From Cocleimonas flava (GTDB lineage: Bacteria > Pseudomonadota > Gammaproteobacteria > Thiotrichales > Thiotrichaceae): a stretch of 64,000 bases of DNA. Positions 135 through 11,115 of this stretch are shown here, piece by piece. Each line of letters starts with the position of its first letter. The stretch's first letter is position 1. The notes beneath the pieces were generated by a model. The model ran no database searches. It worked only from the letters and a program-made list of their open reading frames with translations, and was not told where the DNA came from. The DNA is taken from assembly GCF_004339015.1 (NCBI RefSeq), contig NZ_SMFQ01000003.1:62001-126000 (forward strand), in the 5' to 3' direction. The position numbers and the translations under genes are program-made.

Positions 135-1847
135 ATGTTTGAAGTAGAAGCATGGACAGCTGGAGGAAAGAAAGTTGAAAAAATTGTATGTCATAAAAAA
201 AATGCAATTATAGGTAAAGCACCTGATAGCCAATTGAGATTATATGGGTGGAGAATTGGGTCTAATCATGCTCAGTTGGTAGAGGCTGAAAATGGGGTAT
301 ATATATATAATAACAAATCTAAAGGAAGTAGTACTTTTGTAAATGATTCTGAATATGAAGAGTACGGTCCATTATCAAGTGATGATGAGATTAGGATTCA
401 TAATTATATAATAAAAGTAACTCATATTGGAGCTACCAAAAAAGAAGTACCCATAAATGATATAGAAAAAGCTAACAATACTAATAATGCTCATAAACCA
501 CTTTTAGATGAAACTAACAACACTGCGGTTATTAGTAGAGAGGTTGACGCTAGTAATATTGAGAAACAAAAGTTATACAAACTTTGGCAAGTAACAATAC
601 ATGAACAACTGCTGCAACAAATGGATTTGCGTAGATTAGCTGTTCATGAGATGTCCGATGAAGACTTAAGATCCCTCACTGAAAAAATTCTTATAGAAGT
701 AATTGATAAAAATAAAAATTTTCCTGTCGAAATAGATAAAAAAGAGTTAACAAAAAGAGCCTTAGCTGAAGCGATAGGTCTAGGCCCAATTGAGCCTATG
801 CTTGAAGATGATTCAGTAAGTGAAATAATGGTAAATTCTGCTGAAGAAATATACTACGAAAAAGATGGTAAATTATATAAATCCGATGTCACTTTTTCTA
901 GCAATCAAGCGGTGCTTTACGCCATTGAAAGAATTGTTACCCCGTTGGGTAGACGTATCGATGAAAGTTCTCCGCTCGTTGATGCCCGATTAAAAGATGG
1001 GTCTCGAGTAAATGCAATCATTCCTCCTTTAGCACTTAAAGGACCAAGTATTACAATTCGTAAGTTTATGAAACAACGTCTTCATGGTGATGACTTGGTT
1101 AGATTTGGATCTGTTTCTAAAGAAATGATGGAATTTATAAATATGGCTGTTGCGAACAGGCAAAATATTATAGTTTCAGGTGGTACAGGTAGCGGTAAAA
1201 CAACTTTATTAAATATACTTTCTAATAAAATTCCTGATAATGAGCGTGTAGTTACAATAGAGGATTCTGCTGAACTTCGATTATATCAACCAAATCTTGT
1301 TTCTTTAGAGTCAAGGCCACCTAATCAAGATGGAAAAGGTGAGGTTAATATTCGTGATTTAGTAAAGAACAGTCTTCGAATGAGGCCAGATAGAATTGTC
1401 GTAGGTGAGTGTCGAGGTGGTGAAGCATTAGATATGATGCAGGCAATGAATACGGGTCATGATGGGTCATTAACGACTCTTCATGCAAATAACGCAACAG
1501 ATTGCCTATCAAGGCTTGAAGTTTTAATTCTCATGGCTGAAATGGATTTACCATCTAGAGCAATTCGAGAGCAAATTGCATCATCAGTGGATATTATTAT
1601 TCAGCAAACTCGTTTTCCATGTGGAAGCAGGAAAATTACCAGTATTAGCGAAGTCTCAGGTATAGATAGTGGCAGAATACAACTTGGGGAGATCTTCCGC
1701 TTTGAGCAAAATGGATATGGCGAAGACGATAAAGTAAAAGGTAAATTTATTGCTACAGGCCAAATACCTGGATTCTATGAGGAGCTCAGATCAAAAGGTT
1801 TGCCAGTTAATGTAGATATATTTGACAAGGGCAGGGTCGTGAAATGA
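135..1847 (+). CDS. tadA: FHA domain fused to TadA/CpaF-type pilus ATPase
   Basis: Cytoplasmic secretion ATPase that powers Tad (Flp) pilus assembly. Residues ~20-95 look like a forkhead-associated (phosphothreonine-binding) domain, with [11 protein letters not shown], a central SNHAQL and a closing [13 protein letters not shown]. After a linker, residues ~150-560 are a CpaF/TadA ATPase. Walker A is at 349-356 (GGTGSGKT), and [15 protein letters not shown] and TTLHANN match the Walker B/His-box region of the family. The 570-residue length reflects the extra N-terminal domain. A GGAG seven bases upstream supports the start. The stop overlaps the start of tadB. The FHA domain suggests control by Ser/Thr phosphorylation, which is inference. 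Confidence 0.93.
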
Positions 1848-2695
1848 GTTCGATACTGTTGATTCCACTTTTAGTAACTGTAACCGTAGTAATACTTGGA
1901 TTAATTACTTTTAGTATAATTCAAAATGCATATGCGGAATACAAAAATTCATTTCATACTAGTATCCAAAAAAATATGATTGAAATGTTTTTATTCATAC
2001 CTCCAGAAAAAATGTTCATACTTTCTATTGTTCTAATACTGGCTGTATTTTATTTAACATACCTTATTACAGGGGCATATATTCTTGCCTTAACGTTAGC
2101 CTTTATTGCAGTAGCTGTTCCTAGAATTGCGATTCATCTTATGCGGAAAAAACGTATTAAAATGTTAACTTCTCAATTACCTGATTTTCTAATGTCAGTA
2201 TCTAGAGCTATGCAAGCTGGTTCTAGCCTAAGTCAATCATTAGAGGTTGCAATTCAAGAAGATAGTGGGCCAGTTTCTCAAGAGTTTGCTCTAGTTATGA
2301 AAGAAGTAAGGCTTGGAGTTGATTTTAATGAATCTCTCGATAATTTCTCTAAAAGAGTTCCTATTGAGGAAGCTAATCTTGTTGCAAACGCGATTAAAAT
2401 ATCACGAGAAATAGGTGGAAACCTTTCAGAAGCAATTTATCGTTTATCAGTTACATTACGAACAAAACTAGAAACAGAAGGAAAAATTGATGCTTTAACA
2501 GCACAAGGTCGGCTTCAAGGTATAGTTATGACATTATTGCCAATATTCTTAGGTTTTGTAATCTACAAGATGGAACCCGAGGCCATGTCGAAAATGATTG
2601 AGGAACCAATAGGTTGGTTAGTCATGGCTATCATTGTAGTTATGGAGTTATTAGGCTACTTTTTTATACGAAAAATTGTAAATATTGATGTTTAA
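1844..2695 (+). CDS. tadB: Tad pilus inner-membrane platform protein TadB
   Basis: Polytopic inner-membrane protein of the GspF/TadB family, which with TadC forms the platform that couples the ATPase to pilin assembly. It has N-terminal membrane segments, then a cytoplasmic type II secretion F domain (LTSQLPDFLMSVSRAMQAG, then VRLGVDFNESLDNFSKRVP and ANAIKISREIGGNLSEA), and two C-terminal membrane segments. Its 283 residues fit the family. The ATG overlaps the tadA stop by four bases, so the two are translationally coupled, and tadC overlaps its end in turn. Confidence 0.93.
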   Translation: MSSILLIPLLVTVTVVILGLITFSIIQNAYAEYKNSFHTSIQKNMIEMFLFIPPEKMFILSIVLILAVFYLTYLITGAYILALTLAFIAVAVPRIAIHLMRKKRIKMLTSQLPDFLMSVSRAMQAGSSLSQSLEVAIQEDSGPVSQEFALVMKEVRLGVDFNESLDNFSKRVPIEEANLVANAIKISREIGGNLSEAIYRLSVTLRTKLETEGKIDALTAQGRLQGIVMTLLPIFLGFVIYKMEPEAMSKMIEEPIGWLVMAIIVVMELLGYFFIRKIVNIDV

Positions 2696-3566
2696 TCAAG
2701 AGCAAATATTATTATTAATTCCTTTACTGGCTAGTCTTGCTGTTGTCTTGCTTGTTTTGTCAGTTACGAGTATTGAAAACCCTATTCCCTCGGAAGACCG
2801 AATATATAAAGATCCCATACCTTTTTTAATGAAACCTTTATGGCCACTATTAAATCTATTATCTATACCTGCACAATACCTACCAGTTACTTATATATTA
2901 TGGTTAAAAGATAAGTTAAAACAATCAGAGCTAATTTATCTTTTCAATCCAGAGCAATTCTTTGGTCTTCAGTTATTATCTTGTGTTCTTTTTTCTTTCA
3001 GTACATGGGTGTGTCTTAATGTACTTGGGGAACATAATATAAATTATATTGTTTTAGCTGGAGCAGTAGGCTTATTTTTGCCATTAATAAGTTTAAATGA
3101 TCGAAGAAAAAATAGAGAATTAAAAATAGTAAAAGCTTTACCAATTTATCTTGATTATATAACTATGGGTGTTCAATCAGGTTTAAATTTCAGTGGTTCA
3201 CTTATTCAGGCTACGGAAAAAGGACCAGAAGGACCTTTAAAAAGAGAGTTAATGATAGTGCAAAGAGATATTAGAGCTGGAATTTCCCGCCTTGATGCCA
3301 TGAGAAATATGGCAGAACGTTTAGATATAAGGGAAATTACTAGTTTAGTTTCTACGATAGCTCAGGCAGAAAGAACTGGTTCTGATTTAGGTGAAAGTCT
3401 TAAAATTCAGGCTGATCAACGAAGAATAGAAAGATTTCAACGAGCAGAGGCCATGGCGCTAAAGGCCCCTGTTAAACTTGTATTTCCATTGGTTGCTTTT
3501 ATTTTTCCTACTACATTTATAATTTTAATGTTTCCAATTGCGATGAAATTAAGGGATGTCTTATAA
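2688..3566 (+). CDS. tadC: Tad pilus inner-membrane platform protein TadC
   Basis: Second GspF-like platform protein of the Tad machine, paired with TadB. Membrane segments flank a cytoplasmic F domain with ALPIYLDYITMGVQSGLNF, RAGISRLDAMRNMAERLD and IAQAERTGSDLGESLKIQ, followed by RAEAMALKAPVKLVFPLVAF, which is characteristic of TadC. I chose the ATG at 2688 over the TTG at 2685. The gene overlaps the end of tadB and the start of the next gene, giving a densely packed operon. Confidence 0.92.
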   Translation: MFNQEQILLLIPLLASLAVVLLVLSVTSIENPIPSEDRIYKDPIPFLMKPLWPLLNLLSIPAQYLPVTYILWLKDKLKQSELIYLFNPEQFFGLQLLSCVLFSFSTWVCLNVLGEHNINYIVLAGAVGLFLPLISLNDRRKNRELKIVKALPIYLDYITMGVQSGLNFSGSLIQATEKGPEGPLKRELMIVQRDIRAGISRLDAMRNMAERLDIREITSLVSTIAQAERTGSDLGESLKIQADQRRIERFQRAEAMALKAPVKLVFPLVAFIFPTTFIILMFPIAMKLRDVL

Positions 3567-3924
3567 ATATTGTAAAGTCAAATTAGCGCGTTCCAATAAA
3601 ATATTATTTGAAAATGTTCGTATTCCAAATAGTTTTTATTGTAATGCTAAAGGTTTACTTGGTGAAAATAAATCTAGTAAAAATTTATATATGTTATTCA
3701 GAAGGTGTAATAGCATTCATATGTTTGGAATGAGGGTAGCTTTAGATGTCATTTTTCTTTCATCTGAAAATGTTATTCTCAAATGCGTAGAAAATTTGAA
3801 ACCATGGCAGTTATCTTATTGTTTTAGAAGCTCACAAACTTTAGAGCTACCTATTGGGACAATACAGAAATATAGATTAGTAAATAATATGAAATTGGAG
3901 ATACAAGAATGCACAAAACCATAA
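3556..3924 (+). CDS. DUF192 family protein in the Tad operon
   Basis: A 122-residue protein with the DUF192 pattern: GLLGENKSS near the start, CNSIHMFGMRVALDVIFLS in the middle, and LELPIGTIQKYRLVNNM near the end. DUF192 proteins are small beta-rich proteins of unknown biochemical role and are usually exported, but no clear signal peptide is visible here. It overlaps tadC upstream and tadD downstream, so it is co-expressed with the pilus genes. Its role in piliation is unknown. Confidence 0.8.
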   Translation: MSYKYCKVKLARSNKILFENVRIPNSFYCNAKGLLGENKSSKNLYMLFRRCNSIHMFGMRVALDVIFLSSENVILKCVENLKPWQLSYCFRSSQTLELPIGTIQKYRLVNNMKLEIQECTKP

Positions 3925-4400
3925 CACAGATAGGAATCCTATTATTAGTCTTGGGGCTATCGGCATGTTCTAATTCTGGAATGAATAATGCAAGTGTTGG
4001 GGAAGGGCCTAAAAGTGTTAGTGGTACTCTTGCTCCTCGAATAACAACTGCCTATAAAGCATATGATGAAGGACGTTTATCTACCGCTGAAACGTTATTA
4101 TTAAAATATACAAATGATCATCCTGAATTTACTGATGCATGGTTTAAACTAGGTAATATTTATTATAGAACAGGTCAATATCCTGCTGCAATTACAGCAT
4201 ATGAAAATGTTATTCAACAAGATAATAAACATGGTAAAGCTTGGTACAATTTGGCTTTAACTCGTATTAGGCAGGCAGAGGAAACGCTTATGGCTGGAGA
4301 GGTAAAATTCGAGCCGGGAGACGAACGTAGACTTAGGCTCACATCTCTAAAAAAGAAAATAAGATCAGGTGTGAGACAATATAAGCCGAAGAAACAATAA
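3909..4400 (+). CDS. tadD: TadD-like TPR lipoprotein
   Basis: A 163-residue lipoprotein. The lipobox LSAC places the lipidated Cys at residue 20, and tetratricopeptide repeats follow (for example ~74-107, DAWFKLGNIYYRTGQYPAAI, then KAWYNLALTRI). TadD family lipoproteins act as pilotins or scaffolds for the outer-membrane secretin of Tad pili. The ATG lies inside the 3' end of the DUF192 gene, a 16-base overlap. The C-terminus is basic (KKIRSGVRQYKPKKQ). It is the last recognisable pilus-machinery gene before the toxin gene. Confidence 0.85.
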   Translation: MHKTITQIGILLLVLGLSACSNSGMNNASVGEGPKSVSGTLAPRITTAYKAYDEGRLSTAETLLLKYTNDHPEFTDAWFKLGNIYYRTGQYPAAITAYENVIQQDNKHGKAWYNLALTRIRQAEETLMAGEVKFEPGDERRLRLTSLKKKIRSGVRQYKPKKQ

Positions 4401-4503: not shown

Positions 4504-6363
4504 ATGTTTGCATATACAAAATATACCAAATCTACTTTAGGAGTGAGACAAATAGGTCAATCAATGACTCAATATCTCATTCTGATGTTCATGCTAGCAG
4601 TTGGTAGTTTGGTTACTATTGGTAACGCAAGCAATGCTGGGCGTCATCAAATTGCTGCAGTGAGCCACGAAGTTGCTGGAGATCATGCAGGTTCTGTTCG
4701 AAATACTACAGAAGCTCAAAAAAGCTCAGGTTACGCTAGTGCTAGTGCTTCTTTACCTTATAGCATGAGTAGTAATTCATCAAATCCTGTTACTAATCCA
4801 ACAGGAGATACCCCTACATCCCCTGCCGACCCTGGTGATACCCCTGCATCTACAGACCCTAGTAATCCAATTACAAACCCAGATGGAACAAACCCGGGTG
4901 GAACAAACCCAGATGGAACAAACCCAGATGGAACAAACCCAGATGGAACAAATCCAGATGGAACAAATCCAGATGGAACAAATCCAGATGGAACAAATCC
5001 AGATGGAACAAATCCAGATCCGGAGGAGATACAATGTACAACTACATGGGAAGATGAAAAATACCAATCTGGTGAATGTGATGGGTGGTGGTGTGAAGTA
5101 ACAGGTAACTTTGTAGGTGAAGTAAAAGCTGCAGCTAATGTAGTAATGGATTTTTTGACCGGGGTACTTCAAGGTATTGGAGATCAAATTAATGACCTTT
5201 GGGAATTGTTAAAGAACCCTGGGGTATTGTTGGATGTAGCAAAAGCTTTCATTGATGATCCTAAGGGTACTATTGAGTCAATAATATCTAGTGTTGTAGA
5301 TGATGTTCAAACTGTAATGAATTGTGGTCCACAAGATGTAGGACGCATAGTTGGTCAGAATGTCAACCCTGCAGTAGCACTCAGAGTATTAGATAAACTG
5401 GCTGATATTGCTGGTAATGCTAGATTAGCTGATTACGTTACTAACAAAAGGCGTGATATTGAGTGTCTAAGTTTTCCAGCAGGTACACCAATATGGACTG
5501 CTAATGGACTAGTGAATATTGAACAAATTACTAAAGGTAATATTGTCAATTCTCGAAACGAAAATAACTTCATTAATAGCCAGCAAAAAGTTACTGCACT
5601 TCACTCAAGGGTAGCGAAAGGTTTTCATCGGATTACAACAGAAAAAGGTATAATTGAAGTTACTGAAGAACATCCTTTTTGGGTACAAGGTAAAGGATGG
5701 GTAGAAGCTAAAGATATTGAATGGGAAGATCCAATAGCTACAGTTGATGGAGATGTGATTTCTTATCAGAACGATTATATTGAGGGATCTGTCAAAGTAT
5801 TTAATTTCTCAGTTAGTGAGACCCATAGTTATTTTGCTGGAAATTTCGGAGCATGGGTTCATAACGTAGATTGTGATATTCGTGGTCCAAGTTTCACTAG
5901 AGCTCTAAATTCTTTTGTTAATGATGTTAATAGCAGTAACTTTGCAAAATGGAAAAATGACGCCATAGCTGATGGAGTAAATCCTGATCATATAAAAGAC
6001 ATAATATATGAAGGCTCTTTACAAAAAGGTGTAAATATTTGGGGTAATAATTGGAAGAAGTATTATTCTGAAATCTCAGGAACTGATTATCCTGGCCCTC
6101 CCAGTCATGCTCACCATCTTGTAGAAAAAGGATCTACTTCCCCAGCAGCGATTGCTAATAGGCAAATTCTTGAAGATGCCGGTATTAATGTACAACTACA
6201 CAGAGAAAACCTAACTTGGGCCCCTAATGAAGCAGGTATTCATGGTTCAACTCCTCAACAAGCCCTTAATTCTTTATTGAATGATGCTATTCAAGGAAAA
6301 ACAGGACAAGCTAAAATTGATGCTATAAATGATGCTCTAAGAAGTTGGTCAGAACAGTATTAG
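4504..6363 (+). CDS. Pilin-fused polymorphic toxin: Flp-like pilin, Hint domain, AHH nuclease
   Basis: A modular 619-residue protein. Residues ~8-60 look like a Flp/Tad pilin: a basic leader, G18, then QSMTQY and a hydrophobic helix, then GRHQIAAVSHEVAGDHA, which resembles the segment after the helix in Flp pilins. Position +5 after the likely cleavage glycine is Gln23, not the usual Glu. A Pro/Thr/Asp-rich linker with nine NPDGT-type units (residues 125-169) and a helical region (~175-320) follow. A Hint (intein-like) domain starts at Cys321 and ends at His453-Asn454, with EEHPFWVQGKGWV inside; it should cleave off the C-terminus. Residues ~455-619 carry an AHH-type HNH nuclease motif (Ala536-His537-His538). 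AAGGAAATTTGAA precedes the ATG. Domain calls are by motif; delivery by the Tad pilus is inference. Confidence 0.85.
   Translation: MFAYTKYTKSTLGVRQIGQSMTQYLILMFMLAVGSLVTIGNASNAGRHQIAAVSHEVAGDHAGSVRNTTEAQKSSGYASASASLPYSMSSNSSNPVTNPTGDTPTSPADPGDTPASTDPSNPITNPDGTNPGGTNPDGTNPDGTNPDGTNPDGTNPDGTNPDGTNPDGTNPDPEEIQCTTTWEDEKYQSGECDGWWCEVTGNFVGEVKAAANVVMDFLTGVLQGIGDQINDLWELLKNPGVLLDVAKAFIDDPKGTIESIISSVVDDVQTVMNCGPQDVGRIVGQNVNPAVALRVLDKLADIAGNARLADYVTNKRRDIECLSFPAGTPIWTANGLVNIEQITKGNIVNSRNENNFINSQQKVTALHSRVAKGFHRITTEKGIIEVTEEHPFWVQGKGWVEAKDIEWEDPIATVDGDVISYQNDYIEGSVKVFNFSVSETHSYFAGNFGAWVHNVDCDIRGPSFTRALNSFVNDVNSSNFAKWKNDAIADGVNPDHIKDIIYEGSLQKGVNIWGNNWKKYYSEISGTDYPGPPSHAHHLVEKGSTSPAAIANRQILEDAGINVQLHRENLTWAPNEAGIHGSTPQQALNSLLNDAIQGKTGQAKIDAINDALRSWSEQY
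4876..5010 (+). repeat. 15-bp tandem repeat, nine units, encoding (NPDGT)n
   Basis: Nine consecutive 15-base units of the form AAYCCAGATGGAACA code for eight NPDGT units and one NPGGT (second unit). Units 1-5 use AAC for Asn, while units 6-9 use AAT, a sign of recent unit duplication. The repeat sits between the pilin-like and toxin-processing domains. Slippage by whole units keeps the frame, so linker length can vary. Confidence 0.95.
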
Positions 6364-6379
6364 AAAAGGTACTTAATAA

Positions 6380-6994
6380 ATGATGTTTAACGAAATTTGT
6401 CAGGACTTAGAAAGGGAACTTTATAAAGCTTGTGTGAGATACTTATCTTTACTTCAAAATGATGTGAAAAACGAGAAAGTATATGCTTTTGCAATTTTAA
6501 TTGAATCCGGATTTGTTTCAATGGGTATTTCTGTAAATACAATTGAAGGCTTAAAAGAGAGAAGGATTAAAGAAAAATCTGTTACCCCAGTTGAACTTAT
6601 TACCCCTGATATATATTTAGAAATGAGCTCTGCAGAATGGAAATACCAAAATAAGCATTGGGACGTATTTGTTTCAGTAAATAAAGTTTTAGATACTTTT
6701 TTTGAAAATTTATATGAAGGAAATGGTTTTGTTGATATTGATAAAAAATTAAATGTTGACGAAATCATGAATTTCGCTGAAAGTCGTTTTATACAAATTA
6801 TTTTGAATGTTCTTAAACGTATTAAGTCAGATAATTTGTTGAATGGAAGTACTTTGTTAAATGATTTGTTTTTGGGTGTTCAATTCAATGATATTGGAAA
6901 AGAAGAGATAGTTTTGATAGAGAAAGTTTCAAAGGAACTTAATTCGATGTATTGGCTAGATAAGGTACTTCAGATGAAAAACCTAATTAAATAA
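6380..6994 (+). CDS. Probable immunity protein, DUF4303-like
   Basis: A 204-residue acidic, soluble protein with no signal peptide, starting 16 bases after the toxin stop. Resemblance to DUF4303 rests on VYAFAILIESGFVSMGISVN near residue 35 and the SSAEWKYQNKHWDVF segment near 90. DUF4303 is among the families found as immunity proteins beside polymorphic toxins. Position, size and cytoplasmic character fit an inhibitor protecting the producer from the AHH nuclease domain. Function is inferred from context. An AAAAGG stretch precedes the tandem ATGATG start. Confidence 0.72.
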   Translation: MMFNEICQDLERELYKACVRYLSLLQNDVKNEKVYAFAILIESGFVSMGISVNTIEGLKERRIKEKSVTPVELITPDIYLEMSSAEWKYQNKHWDVFVSVNKVLDTFFENLYEGNGFVDIDKKLNVDEIMNFAESRFIQIILNVLKRIKSDNLLNGSTLLNDLFLGVQFNDIGKEEIVLIEKVSKELNSMYWLDKVLQMKNLIK

Positions 6995-8097: not shown

Positions 8098-8487
8098 CTA
8101 TTCGTCTGTTTTTTGATTAATTTTGGGGATAGTAAACACAACGAGTTTGTTTGAGTTGACTCTCTTTAGGTGTTGCAGATCTGCGTCATTTGGAAATCGA
8201 TACGAGTAATTTACAAACTGCCCACCGGCTATAGCATTGCCGGATATCATGCCGCCATTTTGTGCAGTGATTTGTAATTCTGTTTCAATTATTTTTACTT
8301 TTAGTTGTGATGATTCAATTCCATCAATGTGTATTTTTAGATAATAAGCCTTATCACTTTCAGTTCGTTCGCTTGAAATAGATAAAGAGTTAACCGACGA
8401 GCCCGAAAAAGCGATGTCTGCATAAGTCACAAACAAAAAAGTGCTTGTTAAAACAAGCACTATAAGTTTTGAAATATAATTAATCAT
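8098..8487 (-). CDS. Exported Hsp20/alpha-crystallin-like protein
   Basis: A 129-residue protein with an N-terminal signal segment (VLVLTSTFLFVTYADIAFSG). The rest follows the alpha-crystallin pattern: YYLKIHIDGIESSQLKVKI, then ELQITAQNGG, and YSYRFPNDADLQHLKRVNSN with LVVFTIPK. Small heat-shock proteins are normally cytoplasmic, so an exported version is unusual. It is the last gene of the minus-strand operon, 25 bases after the CsgG/HfaB-like gene. A periplasmic chaperone for fibre subunits, analogous to CsgC or CsgE, is a reasonable guess but only a guess. Confidence 0.62.
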   Translation of the reverse strand: MINYISKLIVLVLTSTFLFVTYADIAFSGSSVNSLSISSERTESDKAYYLKIHIDGIESSQLKVKIIETELQITAQNGGMISGNAIAGGQFVNYSYRFPNDADLQHLKRVNSNKLVVFTIPKINQKTDE

Positions 8488-8512
8488 GTGTCTTTTGTTT
8501 TAATTGATCGAT

Positions 8513-9874
8513 TTACTTTCTCCAGCGAGCTCCTTTTTCAATAGGAACATTTAACCATAATGCTAGGTAAGTATTAGCACCCAACATATTGTCATTAGGA
8601 CTTATGATTCTGGCCTTTACAAAGTCGCTATGTAATCGCTTTAACAGAGCGCTATCAGATAGTTTTGAGTAGCTCCTATCTTTTCTATAATGAGCCAGTA
8701 TGTCGCGTCGTACAGTTGCTTTTCCGTCAATAATGGATTTGCTATCAATAACTTTTCCGTTTACAGCTCTACGTTGCACTAAAGTAGTATCTTTTTCAGG
8801 GCGTTTTAGTAGTTTACGTACGCCATCATCAACATATTCAGCATTGACAAAATCTGACATAACCTGATTAATTAATAACTTATCTCGCATATCGACTAAC
8901 GAAACCTTACTTTTATTTTTTAGTCTAACTCGAGAGTTACCTCGATTGAAGTTATGGAAGTCGTAAAGTTGATTTGAAGAAACTAAATCTTTGAAACCAA
9001 TTTGTTGTTTATTGTCTGAATTTGGTAAGCATTTCCAATAAGGAACATAAGTGTATCTCCCTAGTGCTTCAATGACTCCCCACTCAATCAGTAAACGAAT
9101 AGCTTTGTGTCTGGCATCTACAACAGATCTTTCTCTGCTGTAACCTATCGAGTTTCCGTCCACACTTAAGCCAAAAGAGAGGTCATTTCCTTTCTGGTAG
9201 ACTTGTACTGTATTTGTCGAACTGCTGTTATTAACAACGTCTCCAACATTTGCGCTAGCTATTCTAAAATCCATGGTCATTCTGGCCACGTTGGTCACTT
9301 TATTTGCAGAAGCTTCCAGATTTGTTTCACCAGAACCGCTTCCAAATTCAAACGATCCTTCAGTGCTGGTTTTTGTGTTCCGTATAATGCGATCATATTC
9401 CGTCAATGCGCCATAAAGTTGTATTGTCGAATAGTTATAGTGAGATGGTTTAAAGCGGCCCAGGAACTGATCATCAATAGAATTATTGATACTTTTATAT
9501 CTTGCTGCATCAAGTAGTTCGCTGCTGGTTGGTATGTGTGATATTCGAATGGGGCCGCCAATACGTGAGACCAAGCCGAGTGTCATATCCGTAAAATTAT
9601 TGGGTATTTCACTATCAGGGTATGTGCTTGATGATACGTTGGTAGCGTCTTTTACATCTACGATTGCAACTCTTAAGGGAGCAACTTTATTGCCACTAGT
9701 GCGATAGGTAGATAGCATGTCACCAAAGCATCCAAGAAAATTAGTTGCTCTAGTTTGAGTATCGGATGGGTATTCTAAATGTTTACTAAATTCGTTTTGA
9801 CGATTAGAGGTTGAACAGGCACTTATTAATATGGTGATACTTACAACGGTTAGTTTTCTTCTCCACTCTTTCAT
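8513..9874 (-). CDS. CsgG/HfaB-like outer-membrane lipoprotein
   Basis: A 453-residue lipoprotein with lipobox ISAC and lipidated Cys20. Residues ~45-280 resemble CsgG/HfaB: early PLRVAIVDVKDATN, a mid-part with SYRIG-like strand pattern (TIQLYGALTEYD), MDFRIASANVGDVVNNSSST typical of the channel segment, and AIRLLIEWGVIEALGRYTYVPYW at the end of the domain. CsgG forms the outer-membrane pore for curli and HfaB serves holdfast anchor proteins. The C-terminal ~150 residues are an extra basic region I do not recognise. AAGGAC precedes the start. Its operon partners are small exported proteins, consistent with a dedicated exporter. Confidence 0.72.
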   Translation of the reverse strand: MKEWRRKLTVVSITILISACSTSNRQNEFSKHLEYPSDTQTRATNFLGCFGDMLSTYRTSGNKVAPLRVAIVDVKDATNVSSSTYPDSEIPNNFTDMTLGLVSRIGGPIRISHIPTSSELLDAARYKSINNSIDDQFLGRFKPSHYNYSTIQLYGALTEYDRIIRNTKTSTEGSFEFGSGSGETNLEASANKVTNVARMTMDFRIASANVGDVVNNSSSTNTVQVYQKGNDLSFGLSVDGNSIGYSRERSVVDARHKAIRLLIEWGVIEALGRYTYVPYWKCLPNSDNKQQIGFKDLVSSNQLYDFHNFNRGNSRVRLKNKSKVSLVDMRDKLLINQVMSDFVNAEYVDDGVRKLLKRPEKDTTLVQRRAVNGKVIDSKSIIDGKATVRRDILAHYRKDRSYSKLSDSALLKRLHSDFVKARIISPNDNMLGANTYLALWLNVPIEKGARWRK

Positions 9875-9938
9875 AATAATGTCCTTAATATGTTCTTTTT
9901 TTTATAGTTCTATTCCATTCTAGAGAAGAGAAACAATG

Positions 9939-10376
9939 CTATCGTTGAATGGCTATTGAATCACCTTCATTCTGATTTAAGATAATTATGGTATCAGCAG
10001 TGGTTCCCGGTGGAATAATCACTGATCCTGCAGAGGCACTGTCTGTCCCAGAATTGTTCGTAAAAACTGTTGTATCTTGTAATAGCCCCTCGACTGTATC
10101 AGTTATTTCACCTACTTCTCTTATTGTTTTTCTTGAATTATTCACAATGTGAGCAAGCAGGAAATCAACATTAAATAAACTTGAGTCAATTCGAGAGTCG
10201 AAGTCGTTTAATGGTTGTTTTAATGACGGTGGATCGAATCTACCTGCCAAAGCTGCATTGGATAAAGTTGCTAAAGATAAATATAAAATACAGGCAGTAG
10301 AGGTTTTCACTTTTGATAACTTAATTTGCTTAACAAATTCCATGTTAGAACTTATAAAACATGCTTTAGTTTTCAT
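9939..10376 (-). CDS. Exported protein of the fibre-like operon
   Basis: 145 residues with a long N-terminal region and signal segment (ACILYLSLATLSNAALA, ending near residue 44). The mature part has a helical stretch (FDSRIDSSLFNVDFLLAHIV) and a C-terminus rich in Ser, Gly and beta-prone residues (SASAGSVIIPPGTTADTII, then GDSIAIQR). I do not recognise a family. The AGSVII and DSIAI segments recall AGSIVL and NAIAVG in the neighbouring small protein, so it may be a second exported subunit or a nucleator. A GAGGAGAG ribosome site supports the start. Confidence 0.55.
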   Translation of the reverse strand: MKTKACFISSNMEFVKQIKLSKVKTSTACILYLSLATLSNAALAGRFDPPSLKQPLNDFDSRIDSSLFNVDFLLAHIVNNSRKTIREVGEITDTVEGLLQDTTVFTNNSGTDSASAGSVIIPPGTTADTIIILNQNEGDSIAIQR

Positions 10377-10450
10377 TTGCTACTCTCCTCTACTATCTGT
10401 GTAGTTAGTATAATTACAACGTTATACCTTAATGTACTCTTCCCATTCTA

Positions 10451-10801
10451 TTAATATCCCATTGTATTAATATGAATAGAGCCAGCTGTTGCATTTCCAA
10501 CTGCGATTGCATTTTTACTTCTGTTCTTCACATCATCAAAGTCACAAGCACAAGCGCCGCCTTCTAATACAATAGAGCCTGCTATAGCACGACCTGCCGA
10601 TACATTAAGGTAGCTACTTGAAGAACCAAGTAATCCTGAACTCGATCCTCCAGAGCTACTTTTACCAATTGCCAGTGCATTTTTAGACTTATTAGATAAA
10701 TCTGTACCACCACCGCCGCCATGGTGTCTTCCGCCACCAGCATATGCTGAAGTTACACCTAATGCTAAGATTGCTACTGCTGTTAATAATTGAATTTTCA
10801 T
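10451..10801 (-). CDS. Small Gly/Ser-rich secreted protein, candidate fibre subunit
   Basis: 116 residues from the ATG at 10801, which has a GAGGGA ribosome site; the frame extends to a GTG at 10816. A signal peptide ends at SAYA. The mature part starts with GGGRHHGGGGG and has two related halves, each opening with S-K-N-A (NKSKNALAIGKSS and NRSKNAIAVGNATAGS), separated by a Ser/Gly-rich stretch and AGRAIAGSIVLEGGACAC. Short imperfect Gly/Ser/Asn repeats with alternating hydrophobic residues are typical of secreted functional amyloids and Hfa-type adhesins, which supports the fibre-subunit reading. No direct homologue is recognised. Confidence 0.58.
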   Translation of the reverse strand: MKIQLLTAVAILALGVTSAYAGGGRHHGGGGGTDLSNKSKNALAIGKSSSGGSSSGLLGSSSSYLNVSAGRAIAGSIVLEGGACACDFDDVKNRSKNAIAVGNATAGSIHINTMGY

Positions 10802-11115
10802 AATAATTTCCCTCACAAAATAAATTTAAAATTCAAAAGTAAACAATACTGATTTCCTTCATGTGAACTGTTTACTTTTATCTTACGGTATAAAGAAAGA
10901 ATGAACTTATTTCCTCAACCGCAGACAAACTATAATCTTTGTTATCAATATAGTTAATAGTCTAATGGGCTTAATACTTATGTACTAGTACATTCGGGTA
11001 ATATGAAAATTTATCGTGATTTTAAATATAGTAAATTAAATCAATGAGATAAGTTATTGCTTGTATTTTAAGTTCACACTTTGCACTTTTTATTTTGAGT
11101 ATTTTCGTTCATTTG

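Follow-up and report, generated by a model that had tools for sequence, protein, structure and literature searches.

Gene content and distribution of the locus

The locus described here lies in a 64,000-nt stretch of DNA from the marine bacterium Cocleimonas flava (contig NZ_SMFQ01000003.1, positions 62,001 to 126,000; hereafter, the window). Between positions 8098 and 10801 of the window, an ORF (open reading frame) reading reveals four co-directional minus-strand genes, which encode a small repeat protein, a second small exported protein, a lipoprotein of the CsgG/HfaB superfamily, and an exported alpha-crystallin-domain protein (Table 1). In operon order, the genes are separated by 74, 64, and 25 nt. 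We think it fairly probable that this operon carries out CsgG-type export of a repeat subunit and its partner to the cell surface, with the alpha-crystallin protein serving in Cocleimonas as a periplasmic holdase. For brevity, the lipoprotein is referred to as the pore, after its proposed function. It should be noted that signal peptides and the lipobox were assigned by eye rather than with a predictor.

Table 1. Features of the operon region, in window coordinates
Feature	Position	Strand	Description
Small Gly/Ser-rich two-repeat subunit	10451..10801	-	116 aa, ATG at 10801; candidate secreted/fibre subunit; CxC motif mid-protein
Second exported protein	9939..10376	-	145 aa; N-terminal part likely helical; C-terminal GSVxIxPGxxADxIIIxNxxxGxxIAIxR
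CsgG/HfaB-superfamily lipoprotein	8513..9874	-	453 aa; candidate outer-membrane secretion pore
Exported alpha-crystallin-domain (small heat shock type) protein	8098..8487	-	129 aa
Candidate operator or 5' untranslated region hairpin	10835..10879		Perfect 11-bp inverted repeat AAAAGTAAACA-N23-TGTTTACTTTT, upstream of subunit start
Terminator-like hairpin and T run	8440..8461	-	Inside start of alpha-crystallin gene; weak

An earlier note on this DNA had read the four genes as a minus-strand operon encoding a small Gly/Ser-rich protein with repeated SKNAxAxG motifs, a second exported protein, a CsgG/HfaB-like lipoprotein, and an alpha-crystallin-like protein. The four-gene set is present, co-directional, and conserved, and the descriptions of the individual products are borne out below by the composition, motifs, and internal repeat of the subunit, by profile-profile comparison and shared profile matches for the lipoprotein, and by predicted structure matches and an Hsp20 profile comparison for the fourth protein.

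The whole set recurs in two further Cocleimonas genomes, G007 (loci L021/L041, pore 87% identical) and G003 (L022/L042, pore 73% identical). Three of the 12 Cocleimonas genomes carry both the pore and the alpha-crystallin gene, and the other nine, several of which are incomplete metagenome-assembled genomes, carry neither. Outside the genus, the pore and the second protein occur in Kangiella sp. HZ709 (L023, pore 44% identical) and in four more genomes of its family. These Kangiella-family operons adjoin the same gspA/gspB-like genes (named by inspection) and contain two tandem subunits at four of the five loci, the fifth (L149) ending at a contig end. Nonsynonymous divergence (dN) of the operon genes is below synonymous divergence (dS) wherever dS is computable, indicating purifying selection. 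This selection, together with the synteny in relatives, argues that the four-gene set is not a chance assembly.

The lipoprotein belongs to the CsgG/HfaB superfamily

The pore carries the lipobox ISAC (by inspection), the cysteine of which (C20) is invariant in relatives, and consists of a CsgG-like domain at about residues 8-291 and a C-terminal region of its own at residues 286-453. Using hhalign, the Cocleimonas/Kangiella pore was matched to the CsgG-like family of DUF4384-type operons (P 5e-31) and, in collinear alignments, to HfaB (P 4e-6, residues 7-279) and CsgG (P 6e-5, residues 3-283). As a yardstick, HfaB against CsgG gives 3e-24, and reversed-alignment controls give 0.014-0.65. In addition, a profile built from window, Kangiella, Thiothrix-like, and DUF4384-type sequences (profile A7) matches ORFs G439:C1, G530:C1, and G647:C16, which Pfam CsgG finds well over its cut-off; the G530 and G647 ORFs are preceded by an HfaA-type gene and directly followed by an HfaD-type gene. 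Because of these shared matches and the hhalign results, homology of the pore to the CsgG superfamily is firm, and sequence comparison identifies the window lipoprotein as a true but very divergent member of the CsgG/HfaB superfamily. Scans of the operon proteins against Pfam and NCBIfam gave sub-threshold matches to HSP20 and CsgG only, and a direct sequence search of PDB chains with the pore and the alpha-crystallin protein returned nothing of use.

The C-terminal 168 residues of the pore show patchy conservation and returned no match. Their motif YLALWLNVP resembles LYLALYENVP of L053; the hhalign comparison is not significant, and Pfam PG_binding_1 gives no match. Homology of this region to PG_binding_1 or DUF4384 was considered and found no hhalign support.

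Homology to CsgG and HfaB alone does not show that a protein is a pore, and the lipoprotein could instead be a periplasm-facing accessory without export function, in which case the small proteins would be periplasmic rather than exported to the surface. Such a role would suit a protein whose region 286-453 is unlike CsgG and many of whose relatives carry PG_binding_1 and DUF4384 domains and are followed by an OmpA gene, which points to peptidoglycan. We regard this explanation as improbable given the recurrent linkage of the pore to signal-peptide-bearing repeat proteins that vary widely in length and number, as is the case for secreted polymer subunits.

A third branch of CsgG-type systems

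The CsgG-type export systems that have been studied are two, curli and Hfa. An IQ-TREE phylogeny of 46 sequences resolves a CsgG clade (support 100/99), an HfaB clade (96/96), and a third branch that holds the window pore (100/99). Within the third branch, the Cocleimonas and Kangiella-family pores form a clade (100/100), and an inner group joins this clade with L050, L053, L095, L096, and L098 (100/97). Since the tree is midpoint-rooted and contains some long branches, the order of its deep branches is a working picture. The window operon is a member of neither curli nor Hfa because its pore falls outside both clades, in the third branch.

A third-branch profile matches 45 of 397 Pseudomonadota genomes, with some of the matches covering the DUF4384 part only or corresponding to HfaB genes. 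The usual gene order in the branch is one or more small repeat subunits, a small exported second protein, and the pore; in the Cocleimonas, Kangiella-family, Thiothrix-like, and DUF4384-type loci the subunit and second protein are upstream of the pore. Across these loci the subunit ranges from about 95 aa with two repeats up to about 1,285 aa. Toward the upper end are many-repeat proteins of 1,214 aa (L095, 980-4624, plus strand) and 1,285 aa (L096, 6633-10490, minus strand), which stand in the subunit position beside CsgG-like genes, the latter with no Pfam match. At L028, in a Thiothrix-like genome, long curlin-like QxQ repeat proteins of 249 and 401 aa, without a Pfam curlin match, precede a pore gene of the same type.

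The DUF4384-type operons are uncharacterized. Their CsgG-like N-terminal domain falls in the same well-supported branch (e.g., L053, L090, L107, and the Azospirillum plasmid gene WP_111069504.1, for which the gene set of the region was taken from the annotation rather than from its GC-rich ORFs), and they share with the window operon the order subunit(s), second protein, pore. Unlike them, the window and Kangiella pores have no DUF4384 domain or recognizable PG_binding_1 domain in Pfam, no OmpA gene follows the window pore, and the window set has an exported alpha-crystallin protein added. The DUF4384 domain is also missing, by Pfam, from the Thiothrix-like member that was scanned.

In the open-access literature we found no paper joining DUF4384 and CsgG. 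Few papers name both CsgG and HfaB, and none describes the third branch in its title or abstract; a survey of curli systems makes no mention of HfaA or HfaB (PMC3521004). The third branch is widespread and apparently undescribed. Its repeat subunits change quickly and, if the products of the branch are fibres, the known range of bacterial surface polymers widens.

Repeat subunit and second protein

The mature subunit comprises about 95 residues, of which 20 are Gly and 16 are Ser, and contains two SKNA[LI]A[IV]G motifs. In the window protein, the alignment of one half (DLSNKSKNALAIG...) with the other (DVKNRSKNAIAVG...) outscores all of 1000 shuffles. A motif, N-x-S-x-x-A-x-A-x-G...A-G-S, is common to the Cocleimonas and Kangiella-family subunits, and within the second repeat the pattern N-x-S-x-x-A-x-A-x-G-x-A-x-A-G-S is invariant in 11 sequences. 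When the subunit was compared with 21 targets (CsgA, CsgB, HfaA, HfaD, and 17 other subunits), the two-repeat subunit of L053 was the sole detectable outside relative (P 5.8e-5, 0/30 shuffles; mature parts only, with the first 20-22 residues removed).

In the Cocleimonas, Kangiella-family, and Thiothrix-like loci, and in most of the DUF4384-type ones, the gene for the second protein immediately precedes that for the pore. Second proteins of the Thiothrix type and of the DUF4384 type share homology (5e-10). The Cocleimonas protein resembles the L052 second protein in a pairwise alignment, the score of which is reached by 0/1000 shuffles; in profile-profile comparison with the wider set of second proteins it is not significant. 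Based on its shared position, membership of the same family is probable. An alternative assignment of the second protein as an HfaA homologue is unsupported, as profile comparison finds no detectable similarity.

Between two species, dN is 0.395 for the subunit and 0.074 for the pore, and faster change of the subunit than of the pore is expected of a surface-exposed product. Nucleotide identity between the window and G007 varies along the locus: it is 95% in the 100 bases upstream of the subunit, about 47-66% across the subunit gene and the first part of the second gene, 70-85% in most of the pore gene, and 83% in the serine dehydratase gene. This pattern suggests that the subunit is fast-changing. 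The 11-bp inverted repeat is located 34-78 nt upstream of the subunit start and occurs once in the window, where none is expected. Its arms are conserved in L021 (G007) and degenerate in L022, and the RNA fold of 99 nt around it has a z of -2.45.

The exported alpha-crystallin protein

The 129-aa protein carries a signal-peptide-like leader (by inspection) and matches Pfam HSP20 just under the cut-off (E 0.0016; 18.9 bits against a gathering score of 20.8). Its AlphaFold2 (AF2) model has a mean predicted local distance difference test (pLDDT) score of 74, with a core of about 90. The top Foldseek matches of the model are all small heat shock proteins, and the best match with VIA-align has a Z of 11.5 over 92 residues. 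With hhalign, the protein matches Hsp20 at P 1.8e-7 and CsgC at P 0.085. CsgC is not among the listed Foldseek and VIA-align matches, which alone decides nothing; the profile comparison is also negative. Taken together, the model and the profile matches predict that the fourth gene encodes a genuine alpha-crystallin fold.

The fold and a sequence relation are common to the 129-aa protein and bacterial small heat shock proteins (Hsp20, Xanthomonas HspA, and the Xylella small heat shock protein). Unlike these, the 129-aa protein has a signal-peptide-like leader, a very short N-terminal arm, and a secretion-operon setting, scores below the Pfam cut-off, and has lost the AxxxnGVL signature of the last strand, which by inspection reads NSNKLVVFTIPK in the window and NHPNKIIISIPK in L022. 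Export of an alpha-crystallin domain is not unique, because other exported alpha-crystallin proteins exist beside unrelated genes (G089, G217). Two such proteins from other Gammaproteobacteria, encoded at L152 (1459-2019, minus strand) and by a 152-aa ORF in L153, stand beside metF-like and oligopeptide-transport genes. In this analysis, an alpha-crystallin protein inside a CsgG-type operon was seen only in the Cocleimonas loci.

The 3' end of the operon appears to have a history of its own. Between the window and G007 (L021), the tract 8823-7925, which covers the pore 3' end and the alpha-crystallin gene, is mostly 91-99% identical, and dS is 0.125 for the alpha-crystallin gene versus 1.2-1.5 for the pore and second genes. 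Because of this identity and the low dS, the sequences suggest that the 3' block was recently exchanged between species, likely by recombination.

These data also bear on whether the alpha-crystallin gene has an unrelated stress function and is downstream of the pore by chance, an explanation compatible with the proposed roles of the other three genes. The 91-99% tract, set against 70-85% in the rest of the pore gene, can be taken to mean that it moved as a separate block. A chance position would also accord with the terminator-like hairpin inside the gene, with the unrelated neighbors of exported alpha-crystallin proteins elsewhere, and with the Kangiella-family operons, which have no alpha-crystallin gene beside them. 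Against this, the gene is directly 3' of the pore in 3/3 Cocleimonas loci, even where protein identity falls to 38% and the outer flanks differ, and is absent from 9/9 congeners without the operon. We therefore consider a chance association unlikely.

Neighboring genes

Upstream of the subunit, the operon adjoins a gene on the plus strand that by inspection encodes an L-serine dehydratase. At the other side of the operon, the end of a Tad pilus-like locus (135-4400, plus strand) encodes an FHA-CpaF-like ATPase, two TadB/TadC-like proteins, a DUF192-like protein, and a tetratricopeptide repeat (TPR) lipoprotein; except for the TPR domains, these genes were named by inspection. Directly after it lies the gene for a 619-aa protein (4504-6363, plus strand) with a pilin-like leader (GQSMTQYLILMFMLAVG). 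This protein contains NPDGT repeats in tandem and a PT-HINT domain (E 2.7e-15), and its C-terminal part weakly matches an AHH nuclease. The product of the next gene (6380-6994, plus strand) matches DUF4303 (2e-10) and may be the cognate immunity protein.

Proposed mechanism

Our current proposal is that the 453-aa lipoprotein most likely assembles into an outer-membrane ring pore. The two small proteins would pass the inner membrane via their signal peptides and exit through this pore. The 116-aa protein would be the major surface subunit and would probably stack via its two beta-type repeats into a fibre, possibly of amyloid nature, or an adhesive coat, and the 145-aa protein may act as the partner of pore and subunit, taking the place of CsgB/CsgF or HfaA as a nucleator, an anchor, or a targeting factor. 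As the Cocleimonas addition, the exported alpha-crystallin protein most likely prevents the subunit from folding or aggregating in the periplasm, a role held in curli by CsgC/CsgH/CsgE. A small heat shock protein is plausible as an anti-aggregation partner because CsgC and CsgH inhibit nucleation in curli (PMC4838910) and structurally unrelated chaperones can slow CsgA fibrillation (PMC8729806). The more specific suggestion, that a third-branch secreted-polymer system recruited an exported alpha-crystallin protein as a dedicated periplasmic anti-aggregation chaperone for an amyloid-like subunit, is put forward tentatively. If true, it would mean that an alpha-crystallin holdase and a functional amyloid-like subunit are paired in nature.

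Several findings weigh against the proposal. Direct similarity to CsgG is weak: Pfam CsgG matches the window lipoprotein at E 0.2, under the cut-off, and the same region of its relatives at E 0.015-0.024. The AF2 model of the lipoprotein, from a 4-row alignment, has a pLDDT of 35, is uninformative on the fold, and provides no pore structure. The subunit has no similarity to any proven amyloid, and only its position and a single pairwise alignment tie the second protein to the wider family. Placed where the alpha-crystallin gene begins, the terminator-like hairpin could reduce expression of this gene below that of the pore, a weak indication; the hairpin is kept in L021 with its T run broken and is absent in L022. 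Lastly, no alpha-crystallin gene is adjacent to the Kangiella-family operons, and a search of one of these genomes, Kangiella HZ709, gave no match to the alpha-crystallin protein anywhere. Because it is missing beside these operons, the alpha-crystallin protein is not essential to such systems.

Comparison with curli and Hfa

The earlier note had drawn a parallel to curli and Hfa while judging the subunits and the chaperone unrelated to csgA, csgB, and csgE. What stands is an export operon of the CsgG superfamily whose small exported subunits contain repeats; membership does not, as the pore is outside both clades. By analogy, the curli/holdfast-like reading is supported in the sense that the operon would work like these systems, through CsgG-type export of a repeat subunit. 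In agreement with the note, the subunit shows no detectable similarity to CsgA or CsgB. CsgE and CsgF gave no match over the cut-off in four genomes, and curlin repeats (PF07012) were not found in the subunits or the genome. The exported chaperone that it had counted among the set has the predicted alpha-crystallin fold and is not a general part of such operons, given the Kangiella loci.

Hfa proteins anchor a polysaccharide (PMC6707917), and the pore and two small proteins could form a holdfast-type anchor that tethers exopolysaccharide as HfaABD does in Caulobacter, with no long fibre. HfaB belongs to the same superfamily as the window pore, a small gene is directly upstream of the pore gene in both operons, and related operons are found in Thiothrix-like genomes, which belong to the same family. 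Unlike Hfa, the window operon has no HfaD-like gene; the alpha-crystallin gene follows the pore, and the serine dehydratase gene is upstream of the subunit. Neither small protein has detectable HfaA similarity, both being short and of low complexity and compared with three HfaA sequences only, and no polysaccharide genes were seen in the operon or in the directly adjoining sequence that was read. A holdfast role is possible without specific support, and with the pore outside the HfaB clade, we consider an anchor of this kind quite improbable.

With curli of E. coli (CsgA-CsgG), the window operon shares a CsgG-superfamily pore, a repeat subunit, and a small partner protein. By analogy, the likeness extends to an exported beta-sandwich protein that is possibly an aggregation inhibitor, as CsgC/CsgH are (PMC4838910). 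The two differ in that the window pore is outside the CsgG clade and the chaperone candidate has a small-heat-shock fold with no detected CsgC similarity. The exported small-heat-shock partner is the unusual part of the operon. The Cocleimonas operon would offer a natural test of how an alpha-crystallin domain maintains the solubility of an aggregation-prone protein outside the cytoplasm, with Kangiella as the comparison without it.

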